DNA of 64,000 nt from Methylobacter sp. S3L5C (lineage in GTDB: Bacteria > Pseudomonadota > Gammaproteobacteria > Methylococcales > Methylomonadaceae), in the NCBI RefSeq assembly GCF_022788635.1, contig NZ_CP076024.1, positions 1,364,001 through 1,428,000 on the forward strand, in the 5' to 3' direction. This document shows, piece by piece, positions 5,728 to 54,567 of the stretch; the stretch's first letter is position 1, and each line of letters starts with the position of its first letter. The position numbers and the translations under genes were made by a program. The notes below the pieces were generated by a model, which saw nothing but the letters and a program-made list of their open reading frames with translations, searched no databases and was not told where the DNA came from.

Positions 5728-5866
5728 TTAAACCTCGTTAATAAGGCGCGGGCTGTTATCTGCAGTTTTTAGATTGCAAATGGCCTCCCGCGCTTTTTAC
5801 ATCAATAAAAGTCTTGACATTACACACTATTTCTAAACAAGAAACAATCAATTTATTATTTAGCAT

Positions 5867-35902: not shown

Positions 35903-36118
35903 CGAGCATGTGCGACGTAAATTGAAAATTTAATTTCTGAAAGACTATAACGCTTATAATTGATACCTATTGAATTAACCCTGCCTGCTTTCCTGCTCTT
36001 GATAATATCGGAAAGTTATTTTTAGCACCATCTTGGCCAAGGCGTTAAAAATAGTGTACCTGTATTGTGAATATCCTCTTGGCGAACTTGTAATGGTCAA
36101 GTAAAACCGGACACTTTC

Positions 36119-50829: not shown

Positions 50830-51461
50830 TAACTTACCTCGGATTCTTTAGTCAATTGTATTCTAACCAGACATCTTTCTGCGGTTATTCCTGGAACGTT
50901 GACAGGGATCAGGGTAGTTATTGCTGATTCCAGTTCCGAAACATCAGGTGCTTGTCCTTTCATTGCCAACAGTACGCCATTCTTGTTGAGTAAATGCGCC
51001 GTTAATTTCACTATATCAGATAAACTGGCAAACGCTCGGGTAATGGCTGTATCAAAACTTGTTTCGGGATGATATTGTTCAACACGATTATGACAGACAG
51101 TGACATTTTTCAGTTTTAACTCAAGGATTGCCTGTTGCACAAACCGTGTTTTTTTGGCATTACTATCCAATAAAGTAAACTCGATATCGGGTAAATAAAT
51201 CGCCAGCGGAATACCCGGCAGGCCGGCTCCCGTACCGATATCAATAACCCGTTTACCTTCAATAAAGGGCAAAATGGCCAGGCTATCCAGCAAATGCAGG
51301 CGCACCATCTCTTCCTTGTCCCGTATGGCGGTCAGATTATAAGCTTTATTCCATTTTTCAAGCAGCTTTATAAAGCCTAGCAATTGCTCAACTTTATCTT
51401 CAGCAGTCGATAAATTTAGGGATTCAAGACCGGAAATCAGAATTTTTTTACACGTTTCCAT
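50829..51461 (-). CDS. rsmG: RsmG, 16S rRNA m7G527 methyltransferase
   Basis: A 210-residue SAM methyltransferase that modifies G527 of 16S rRNA. YNLTAIRDKEEMVRLHLLDSLA and the motif I VIDIGTGAGLPGIPLAIYLPD, then LLDSNAKKTRF, are family hallmarks. The ATG overlaps the mnmG stop (TAATG). Known also as gidB. Confidence 0.96.
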   Translation of the reverse strand: METCKKILISGLESLNLSTAEDKVEQLLGFIKLLEKWNKAYNLTAIRDKEEMVRLHLLDSLAILPFIEGKRVIDIGTGAGLPGIPLAIYLPDIEFTLLDSNAKKTRFVQQAILELKLKNVTVCHNRVEQYHPETSFDTAITRAFASLSDIVKLTAHLLNKNGVLLAMKGQAPDVSELESAITTLIPVNVPGITAERCLVRIQLTKESEVS

Positions 51462-53332
51462 TAGGCACTTTTCTTTTTTAAATAAACTAACAGCAGGGAA
51501 ATGGCGGCGGGAGTCATACCGGGTATTCGTGATGCCTGACCTAACGTTTCTGGCCGCTGCGCTTTAAGTTTTTGGCTTACTTCGTTGGACAGCCCTGATA
51601 CGCCGTTATAATCAAGGGCATCTGGAAGTCGTAAATGATCGTAGCGCAGTGCTTTGTCAATTTCAGTTTGCTGCCTGACAATATAGCCTGCATATTTAGC
51701 CTGAATTTCAACTTGCTCGCCCACCTGTTCAGTAACCGCTTCGCCGCCCTCCATAAATGACAGTAAACGTTCTATATCCACCTCGGGTCGTCGCAGTAAC
51801 TCCATCAAATTAGCTTCTTTTAGCAAGGGCTTGCCCCAGATTTCTGCCACCTGAAGTGCTTCTTCTGTATCTGCCCTGACCCATTTTTTTTTCAAATCAT
51901 CCTGCAATCCGGAAATCGCGGCACGTTTAATCTCAAAAGCTTGCCAGCGTTCATCATCAACCAAGCCCAATTCACGACCTTTTTCTGTTAAGCGCAAATC
52001 GGCATTATCTTCTCTTAACAATAAACGATATTCAGCACGACTGGTAAACATACGATACGGCTCTTGTGTGCCGCGGGTAATCAGGTCGTCAATCATCACG
52101 CCCATATAAGCTTCATCACGGCCAGGGCACCAGCTTTCAAGGCCCATAACCAAACGTGCCGCGTTTAGCCCTGCAATCAAACCTTGTGCGGCAGCTTCTT
52201 CATAACCAGTGGTGCCATTAACTTGTCCTGCAAAAAACAAAGCGTCCATATGCTTGGTTTCCAACGACATTTTTAAATCTCTGGGATCAAAAAAATCATA
52301 TTCAATGGCATAGCCAGGACGGATTATTTCGGCATTTTCAAAGCCCAGCATTGAGCGTACAAACTCATACTGCACATCAAACGGTAAGCTCGTGGAAATG
52401 CCATTGGGATAAATTTCATTGGTATCCAGACCTTCAGGCTCGACAAAAATCTGGTGGGTATCTTTATCGGCAAAACGGACGATTTTATCTTCAATAGACG
52501 GACAATAACGTGGCCCTATGCCCTCAATAATCCCTGAATACAGCGGCGATCTATCCAGTCCGGCACGGATAATATCGTGAGTTTTACTATTAGTGCGGGT
52601 GATATGGCAAGGGATTTGGCGGGGATGCTGTTCGCGTTTACCCATAAAAGAAAACACGGGTACAGGACTATCGCCGTGTTGCTCTTCCAACTTACTGAAA
52701 TCGATGGTTCTGCCGTCAATACGCGGCGGTGTTCCGGTTTTTAAGCGGTCAATGCGAAACGGCAATTCGCGTAATCGGTCAGCCAAGGCAATAGAGGCAG
52801 AGTCACCGGCTCGGCCACCGCTATAATTTTCCAGGCCGATATGGATTTTTCCACCCAAAAAGGTACCGGTTGTTAATACCACGGCTTTCGCCATGAAATT
52901 TAAGCCCATTTGGGTTTTAACACCGACGACTTTATTGCCGACGACGATTAAATCAGCAACTGTTTGCTGAAATAGCGCCAGATTAGGTTGGTTTTCCAGT
53001 GTACTTCTGACCGCCTGCTTATACAGCATTCGATCTGCCTGCGCGCGAGTTGCCCTGACCGCAGGACCCTTGCTGGCATTTAATATACGAAACTGAATGC
53101 CGCCCAGATCAATAGCTTTGGCCATAATTCCGCCCAAGGCATCAATCTCTTTAACCAAGTGACCTTTGCCAATTCCGCCAATCGCAGGATTACAGCTCAT
53201 TTGCCCCAAGGTCTCTATGTTTTGCGTTAACAATAATGTTTTCGCTCCACAACGAGCGGATGCCAGAGCGGCTTCAGTACCTGCATGGCCGCCGCCGACC
53301 ACAATTACGTCAAAATCTTTTTTAAATTTCAC
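51461..53332 (-). CDS. mnmG: MnmG/GidA, tRNA uridine-5-carboxymethylaminomethyl synthase subunit
   Basis: A 623-residue FAD protein that with MnmE modifies wobble U34 of tRNAs. The N-terminal [21 protein letters not shown] is the dinucleotide-binding motif; [23 protein letters not shown] is family-defining; the C-terminal helical domain ends [15 protein letters not shown]. The start is GTG at 53332 with a weak ribosome-binding region. It is first in the mnmG-rsmG-parA-parB cluster and divergent from the small ArfA-like gene. Confidence 0.96.
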
Positions 53333-53408
53333 AAGCTTTTTTTACTCAGAGTCGCTATATTAATGTGTGTCAATTAGACATACTTTTTACTATTATAAGA
53401 GGTAAACC

Positions 53409-53633
53409 ATGAAAAAACGTAACAATCCTGACAAAATAGATTGTGTTCCTGTTCAAAACCCGGTTGCAAAGTTCGCACACCAGTTTAATAAGGCACATGT
53501 CTTTGAAGATAAAAACAAATATCATCGCAATGCAAAGCACAGGAAGCAGGAGGCTTCACTAATAACTCTGGTTAGAATTATTAGCGAAGCCTCCTGCTTC
53601 TTTCAACCTCTGCATTCCACCAGAAGTCTTTAG
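53409..53633 (+). CDS. Small basic protein with in-gene hairpin; candidate ArfA-like ribosome-rescue factor
   Basis: A 74-codon gene with AGAGGT seven bases before its ATG. The N-terminal 45 residues are polar and very basic (NPVAKFAHQFNKAHVF, then DKNKYHRNAKHRKQE); the Y-x-R-x-x-K-H ending resembles the SYMRKGKH segment of E. coli ArfA. The last 30 codons, which encode a hydrophobic tail (LITLVRII, CFF), coincide with a long hairpin at 53543-53600. In E. coli arfA, RNase III cutting or termination at such an internal hairpin gives a stop-less mRNA whose product is tagged by tmRNA unless tmRNA fails. Family assignment is inferred from this architecture and partial similarity. Divergent from mnmG. 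Confidence 0.6.
   Translation: MKKRNNPDKIDCVPVQNPVAKFAHQFNKAHVFEDKNKYHRNAKHRKQEASLITLVRIISEASCFFQPLHSTRSL
53543..53600 (+). promoter_or_regulatory. Long hairpin inside the ArfA-like coding region
   Basis: GAAGCAGGAGGCTTC (53543-53557) pairs perfectly with GAAGCCTCCTGCTTC (53586-53600). After one A-C mismatch the stem continues C-G, then TAATAA/TTATTA, then TCT/AGA around a GGTT loop: about 25 pairs in all. No proper T tract follows, so a double-strand-specific RNase target is more likely than a plain terminator. Confidence 0.85.
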
Positions 53634-53809
53634 TAAAATTATTATCTGCGCTTATCGCTGCGGACTTGTTGTCGCTCTTTTATCTTAGCGACCCAAGACT
53701 GCGATGCTTGTCAACATTCCCGACAGAACTTTTTAAAGGTGTCTCATAGAGCTGATTCTGGTAGAGTTTTACCGATTTAATAGCAGGTAAGCATTCTTGA
53801 ATGATTGCT

Positions 53810-54484
53810 TTACAGCAAACCATGCTCCGCAAAGGAGTAAGGGTTGCCATCACCAATAATAAAATGATCGAGTACGCGGATATCGAATAAGGTTAACGCT
53901 TGTTTGAGCTTATCGGTGATTTGTTTGTCAGCCTGGCTGGGTTCGGTAATGCCGGAAGGATGATTGTGGGCAAAAATGACTGCCGCTGCATTGTGATATA
54001 GCGCCTGTTTGACAACCTCTCGAGGATAAACGCTGGCACCGTCTATGGTTCCCCTGAATAATTCCTCCAGTTTGATAACCCGGTGTTGGTTATCAAGAAA
54101 TAAACAGGCAAATACTTCGTAACTATAACCGCGTAATTGTGCGCTGAGATAGGCTTGGGTAGTTTCCGGACTGGTTAAGGCGCTGCCCCGTTCGAGTATC
54201 TCTTTAAAATGGCGCTTGGCCATTTCCAGTACCGCCTGGAGTTGGGCATATTTGGCGCCTCCCAAGCCGTAACCCATGCAAAAGCGCTGTTGGTCTGCAT
54301 TGAGTAAGCCTTTTAAAGAGCCAAATTCTGCGAGCAAGTCACGGGCTAAATCCACTGCCGACTTGCCGCGTGTGCCGGTTCGTAAAAAAATAGCCAGCAG
54401 CTCGATATCGGTTAAGGCGGCCGAGCCCCGTTGTAGCAGTTTTTCTCTGGGCCTGTCTTCTGCGGGCCAATCTTTAATAGCCAT
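53810..54484 (-). CDS. radC: RadC-family JAB-domain protein
   Basis: A 224-residue RadC protein. An N-terminal helix-hairpin-helix-like UPF0758 region ([22 protein letters not shown]) is followed by the JAMM metalloprotease-like motif [19 protein letters not shown]. Despite the name its role in repair is doubtful. The ATG at 54484 ([12 protein letters not shown]) has AAGGA seven bases upstream and gives the family length; a start 11 codons earlier is possible but has no support. Confidence 0.93.
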
Positions 54485-54567
54485 GAGACATTCCTTAAAG
54501 CAAGTTAAGATGGCCAATCATAAAATAATTTTGCTGCTCTTGCCATAAAAACGCCTGATTTTAGCGC

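Follow-up and report, generated by a model that had tools for sequence, protein, structure and literature searches.

The small gene at positions 53409..53633 of the forward strand, which runs for 74 codons from ATG to TAG and belongs to the family DUF7230 (PF23876), probably encodes an ArfA-like, release-factor-dependent backup rescue factor that is controlled by trans-translation. We propose it as an alternative ribosome-rescue factor based on the logic that the gene has a self-truncating design, that its peptide carries a motif placed like the tail motif of ArfA, and that one further sequence (L157) bridges the two families. For the self-truncating design, the support is close to the most that sequence can give. 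The initial annotation of the window (the whole 64-kb stretch of DNA that was analyzed) had recognized this reading frame, described the peptide ahead of an internal hairpin as basic and containing Y-x-R-x-x-K-H, and judged the protein to be divergent from ArfA of Escherichia coli, all of which held. It had also named the ArfA profile PF03889 for a search: hmmscan against Pfam-A gave no match of the protein to PF03889 at E <= 10 and placed it instead in DUF7230 (E 8.1e-19; 67.9 bits versus a cut-off of 27), and no NCBIfam model was matched by it at E <= 10.

The conserved core of the protein, NPVAK..N...DK..Y.R..KH, is encoded by codons 17-44 (53457..53540, forward strand). In an alignment of 62 DUF7230 sequences (A1), A20, A23, D34, Y38 and R40 are invariant, and N17, V19, K21, F26, N27, K43 and H44 are conserved in at least 90%. 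The core ends in Y-x-R-x-x-K-H (YHRNAKH; 53520..53540, forward strand), whose position and spacing are common to the ArfA tail (SYMRKGKH in E. coli). In ArfA, this basic tail is known to enter the mRNA channel. The tail that follows had been called hydrophobic, which is correct relative to the core (GRAVY of 0.10 versus -1.36) and overstated in absolute terms, as it is only mildly so. The closest named relative in our scan was that of Methylobacter psychrophilus, with 95% identity over 74 residues. The gene lies between two genes on the reverse strand that were named from their translations: mnmG (51461-53332), divergent and upstream, and radC (53810-54517), convergent and downstream. A start resembling that of mnmG was found divergently within ~600 nt upstream at 63 of 104 loci in a simple motif test, and the position of the gene seems often to be kept. 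Upstream of the gene, at 53367..53396 on the forward strand, is a weak sigma-70-like promoter match (9/12), which is a match to the consensus only; two such matches were found in the region versus 1.3 expected.

Immediately behind the YHRNAKH codons, the message can fold into a long hairpin made up of a 5' arm (53541..53569; codons 45-54), a GGTT loop (53570..53573) and a 3' arm (53574..53602), all on the forward strand. In the arms, 27 of 29 positions are paired and the two exceptions are single A/C mismatches, and the minimum free energy structure of the RNA has 16+7+3 = 26 pairs at -40.5 kcal/mol. The near-perfect hairpin with a GGTT loop noted in the initial annotation is thus present, and it is beyond chance, given that folding of 53380-53660 yielded a z score of -5.45 with none of 200 shuffles as good. 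The earlier count of 15+1+6+3 pairs was slightly low, and the earlier statement that the hairpin takes up the last 30 codons was loose: it spans codons 45-65, and nine more sense codons precede the stop. The 28 nt between the 3' arm and the stop codon, together with the TAG itself (53603..53633, forward strand), form a coding tail that is unconserved in homologues and has no U-tract. In a scan of the window allowing loops of 3-12 nt, the hairpin had the top score, 57.8, and the runner-up scored 44.0. Nothing in the window matched Rfam at gathering scores. The window also holds other long imperfect inverted repeats of 22-26 pairs, at 5743-5796, 1770-1826 and 35999-36071.

The hairpin was then compared across the family in 128 DUF7230 loci (36 from genome searches, 20 from the scan of named genomes, and 72 stretches), some of which share one species. 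Omission of L132, which is cut by a contig end, left 127 measurable loci, 121 of them distinct; L156 and L157 were found later and are outside the 121. The 130 nt past the core were scored with a threshold of 30, overlapping windows taken from the sequence flanking each locus served as the control, and the aligned core end was used as the anchor for three divergent loci without the motif (L006, L007 and L113). A score of at least 30 was reached by 114 of the 121 distinct loci versus 41 of 3917 flanking windows, and a score of at least 40 by 100 of the 121 versus none of the 3917. In the 114 loci, the stem begins 0-9 nt past the core (median 3.5) and has a median of 23.5 pairs. Three loci that scored below 30 (L034, L123 and L126) have a stem that is visible by eye, with a bulge or a longer loop than was allowed. 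L129 has a short hairpin only, and L005, L006, L128 and L156 have no comparable hairpin, so the design is not universal in DUF7230 as Pfam defines it. In these four hairpin-less loci, among them L005 from a 1.2 Mb genome (G158), Y-x-R-x-x-K-H is lost or altered, but the converse fails, as L086 (YCRKAKY) and L097 (YSRKGRQ) have an altered motif and retain the hairpin. Two DUF7230 matches were found in each of three genomes (L128 and L017 in G354, L100 and L064 in G325, and L127 and L132 in G306), and L128, the second copy in G354, is divergent. For the analyses that follow, 71 representatives were used, chosen after ten divergent or problematic loci (L006, L007, L113, L120, L123 and L127-L131) had been set aside; A1 covers 62 of the 71.

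Between the KH codons and the end of the 5' arm, no in-frame stop was present in any of 68 representatives (the 71 minus L005, L034 and L126), whereas a stop occurs there in 24 and in 8 of them when the two alternative frames are read; in the window, likewise, the message upstream of the 3' arm has no in-frame stop. Among the 114 loci with a hairpin, the stop codon lies after the hairpin in 86, touches the 3' arm in 26 and lies in the loop in two, and at no locus is it ahead of the loop; a device in which cleavage of the stem strips the message of its stop codon would need this arrangement. An intrinsic terminator was rejected as the main device, given that T past the stem is on average at background level (2.17 in the 8 nt past the stem versus 2.10 over the 114 loci, six of which have at least five T there). 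Stems that are nearly perfect, exceed 20 bp and lack a U-tract suit RNase III. Since the stem here is of that kind and a U-tract is not general, RNase III is the likelier agent than termination. For E. coli arfA, the available part of PMC3989581 documents cleavage within the stem by RNase III and also termination, whereas DUF7230 genes have no general U-tract. The long hairpin is the type found in the great majority of the DUF7230 members seen; three divergent members (L007, L113 and L157) have an in-frame hairpin that ends in a T-run and is terminator-like. L113 and L007 read NLVAKHAR..., have no Y-x-R-x-x-K-H, and carry this hairpin upstream of the stop.

Covariation was assessed in an alignment of 70 of the 71 representatives (A3); L005, which is hairpin-less, was excluded, and the figures therefore hold for hairpin-bearing members. 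RNAalifold predicted 21 pairs on A3, each with at least one two-sided change. In a 20-pair helix, 90.2% of cells pair, versus 38.6-51.1% when the helix is slid by 1-3 columns; A3 was built from sequence and not fitted to structure, and the helix was taken from its first row, which gives the helix some advantage over its slid versions. Two-sided cells numbered 306 versus 78.8 +/- 7.7 in shuffled alignments, and none of 500 shuffles, which ignore the relatedness of the sequences, reached 306. A coarser measure is weak: 19 of the 20 pairs have a two-sided change, and 12 of 500 shuffles reached this number (mean 15.9). The peptide encoded over the same region drifts. Mean pairwise identity is 0.67 for the 28 residues up to KH, 0.36 for the 5' arm, 0.11 for the loop, 0.17 for the 3' arm and 0.07 past the hairpin, the tail values being based on the 51 (of 68) representatives whose stop is 60 nt or more past KH, and on 32 of them for the part past the hairpin.

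The stop codon leaves 10 nt or more of the 3' arm untranslated at 28 of the 114 loci. Seventeen of these are in A3, and in them 241 of the 271 pairs with a 3' base past the stop are retained; counted over the entire helix, 295 of 338 cells pair in those 17 rows versus 966 of 1060 in the other 53. Compensatory changes, a drifting tail peptide and pairing past the stop together argue that the RNA is the target of selection, as it is in arfA. Selection on the tail at the level of the protein was rejected as the cause of the palindrome, as the tail drifts and the 3' arm still pairs where it is untranslated. The initial annotation had looked to related genomes for a hairpin that covaries while the tail sequence changes, which is the pattern we found, and had named a tail that is kept while the hairpin is lost as evidence against its reading; the opposite was seen, also where the 3' arm is untranslated.

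ArfA (YhdL) is known from E. coli and further beta- and gammaproteobacteria, and proteobacterial ArfA is reportedly the subject of Schaub et al. 2012. Compared side by side, both families encode a short basic peptide whose core ends in Y-x-R-x-x-K-H, both have a hairpin downstream of the motif and ahead of or around the stop codon, and in both the tail exceeds the core in hydrophobicity, although the tail value in DUF7230 is low (GRAVY of 0.10, versus 0.42 for the last 18 residues of E. coli ArfA). Among 21 ArfA control loci (L133-L153), 17 have a hairpin scoring at least 30 past the motif (L140 and L144-L146 are below 30), and some, for example L136, L147, L148 and L151-L153, have the stop inside the hairpin. 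E. coli arfA (L166), folded alike, has SYMRKGKH, then the hairpin, then the stop; its hairpin begins 17 nt past the core, however, rather than 0-9 nt as in DUF7230. The Y and R of the motif are invariant in the 62 DUF7230 sequences of A1, as they are in an alignment of 17 of the 21 ArfA loci (A2, which leaves out L142, L146, L151 and L153). The remainder of the core differs, with NALKALV..PLF..RV and KGKGS in ArfA where DUF7230 has NPVAK...N...D. K-G-K-G is invariant in the 17 ArfA sequences, whereas the DUF7230 consensus has D-K-x-x-Y there, and KGKG(S/A)Y is absent from the consensus of the 62 sequences. The ArfA tail is likewise poorly conserved, according to the accessible portion of PMC8012679.

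Direct profile comparison of the two families gave a short match. With hhalign, DUF7230 and ArfA aligned over 13 columns, those of the tail motif, with a probability of 30 and an E of 5.5e-4 for one comparison; E. coli ArfA scored 13.1 bits with the DUF7230 model, under the cut-off of 27; and HMM cross-scores exceeded 99% of shuffles for 9 of 18 ArfA and 3 of 62 DUF7230 sequences, none of which beat the highest shuffle. Neither the window's own genome nor any of 151 genomes of the order had a PF03889 match at E <= 0.001; the E. coli control was positive. The bridge is L157, a locus from another class of the phylum (genome G776, C5:253057-253161), which scores 33.1 bits with Pfam DUF7230, above the cut-off, gives alignments of 44 columns to ArfA (probability 92) and 33 columns to DUF7230 (probability 83), and outscores every one of 2000 shuffles with either HMM (14.3 and 15.8 bits). 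Within its reading frame, just ahead of the stop, lies a terminator-like hairpin. Plasmid searches with L157 and L156 as queries gave no match and E >= 0.7, respectively. Judged by its sequence, L157 is possibly an ArfA-like gene outside the classes from which ArfA has been reported in a survey (described below).

The initial annotation had offered an unrecognised ArfA branch or a convergent system, which was the right pair of alternatives, and since L157 scores with both profiles, the balance leans towards a distant branch. Common descent of DUF7230 and ArfA, with a single sequence as the bridge, is accordingly the reading that we favor, and it is not proven. As the protein does not match PF03889 and KGKG is missing, we assign it to DUF7230 and regard this family as a probable distant branch of ArfA. 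The chances are about even that DUF7230 and ArfA are branches of one self-truncating rescue superfamily that is wider in Pseudomonadota than known, whose members would make a non-stop message in at least two ways, by a long RNase III hairpin or by an in-frame terminator.

In the mechanism that we propose, the message would normally lose its stop codon and the gene would be expressed from truncated mRNA. The mRNA would fold into the ~27 bp hairpin right after the Y-x-R-x-x-K-H codons, a step that both the sequence and the covariation support. RNase III would then cut within the hairpin, and the message that remains would contain no in-frame stop. Ribosomes would stall at its 3' end, and tmRNA-SmpB would tag a product of ~45-55 residues, which would be degraded so that little accumulates.

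Other small rescue systems resemble this one to varying degrees. BrfA (YqkK) of Bacillus subtilis has the same layout: it is small, depends on RF2, is translated from a non-stop message and is repressed by trans-translation, and its KH motif sits in the mRNA channel, according to the available parts of PMC6881298 and PMC8012679. It differs in the truncation of its message, which the accessible part of PMC6881298 ascribes to an intrinsic terminator, a device that the terminator-like hairpins of L007, L113 and L157 resemble; PMC11633108 mentions an RNase III site. It is also limited to a subset of Bacillaceae, and we likened it to DUF7230 by description only. Compatibility between species is low for ArfA and BrfA alike. 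ArfT of Francisella is also small and recruits release factors, and has a stretch similar to KGKGS; by contrast, it has 40 residues and neither a terminator nor an RNase III site ahead of the stop, as far as the available portion of PMC6299226 describes it. The broad ArfT family in the excerpted part of PMC6514570 was set against DUF7230 by description only, and the two may overlap. ArfB (YaeJ) shares the role of a backup in rescue but has a catalytic peptidyl-hydrolase domain in a model of 140 positions (NF006718), which the product of the 74-codon DUF7230 gene does not match. A tblastn search with the window protein gave weak matches in 105 phage records, 103 of them from Pseudomonas phages; among the ten listed, which are hypothetical proteins or a predicted ORF, the best E was 0.09, and these matches may reflect chance or phage-borne relatives.

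Three other explanations of the locus were weighed. A mobile palindromic repeat (REP/MITE-like), or a chance inverted repeat at the end of a gene, is suggested by the near-perfect palindrome and short loop of the hairpin, yet the probability of this is negligible: homologues with differing sequences have the hairpin at the same place and are linked by covariation, and it is the strongest hairpin of the window. A mobile repeat was rejected, as the 15-nt arm sequence has no occurrence in the 64-kb window outside its own two arms, also when two mismatches are allowed. An ordinary small autoregulated gene, in which an RNase III or terminator hairpin sets the level or the 3' end of the mRNA and its overlap with the frame is incidental, is very improbable. 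Hairpins are common at the 3' ends of genes, the stop is within the loop or 3' arm in 28 of the 114 loci, and the six loci with at least five T past the stem would suit a terminator. However, stops in such places would also be removed by a cut in the stem, the stem always begins within 9 nt of the core in the 114, a U-tract is not general, and the avoidance of stops in or ahead of the 5' arm is confined to the coding frame.

It is somewhat less improbable, though still unlikely, that the design is real and restrained by tmRNA, and the peptide acts otherwise, for example as a hibernation or RNA-binding peptide when trans-translation is overloaded. Rescue is indicated by the layout of the gene and a short motif, and the peptide is basic with a low-confidence AlphaFold model (mean pLDDT 63.6, pTM 0.22) and no PDB chain at E <= 10 in a sequence search with the family profile, all of which leaves room for such a role. 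Against it, ArfA and BrfA, which both have this layout, are rescue factors as described in the available parts of their literature, Y-x-R-x-x-K-H is placed as the tail motif of ArfA, and L157 matches ArfA over 44 columns. A rescue factor of the ArfA kind is thus the reading we retain.

DUF7230 was found in 100 of 151 genomes of the order, 7 of 232 of the class and 3 of 397 of the phylum, each draw being a sample that includes the window's own genome. That genome has a tmRNA (214 bits), and tmRNA was above the gathering score in 136 of the 151 order genomes; a looser count of 151 of 151 includes tRNA-like matches, and archaeal controls were also positive by it. ArfB was above its model cut-off in 51 of the 151, including the window's own genome, where it is at a separate locus, and DUF7230 is consequently not the sole possible backup there. 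Both DUF7230 and ArfB were present in 25 order genomes, DUF7230 only in 75, ArfB only in 26 and neither in 25 (Fisher p 0.002), a negative association that we do not rely on because whole clades share one state and phylogeny thus confounds it.

In 2024, nucleotide profiles were used to survey 15,259 genomes, and ArfA was reported from no groups other than Gammaproteobacteria, some Betaproteobacteria and ten species of the Bacillus subtilis group, according to the available part of PMC11633108. It has been suggested, in the accessible portions of PMC6881298 and PMC8012679, that further factors of this kind may exist, perhaps invisible to sequence similarity and needing other strategies to be found. 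Our literature search, which was poor in subscription papers, found no mention of DUF7230 or PF23876, and within the same scope, a broader search included, nothing on point for Methylobacter and ribosome rescue.

The family considered here is an unnamed Pfam family that was caught by the design of its gene, whose coding sequence holds a conserved hairpin that would truncate its own message. If our reading is correct, DUF7230 would gain a function, and many genomes of the order that have neither ArfA nor ArfB by those models would gain an alternative factor. Should the superfamily also be real, DUF7230 would be the only model-recognised backup of tmRNA in 75 of the 151 order genomes, those with no ArfA and no ArfB above the cut-off. 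The same reading would imply a possible evolutionary link from ArfA to another family, and would provide a recipe for finding more such genes: a small basic ORF with a KH motif and a covarying hairpin or a terminator ahead of the stop.
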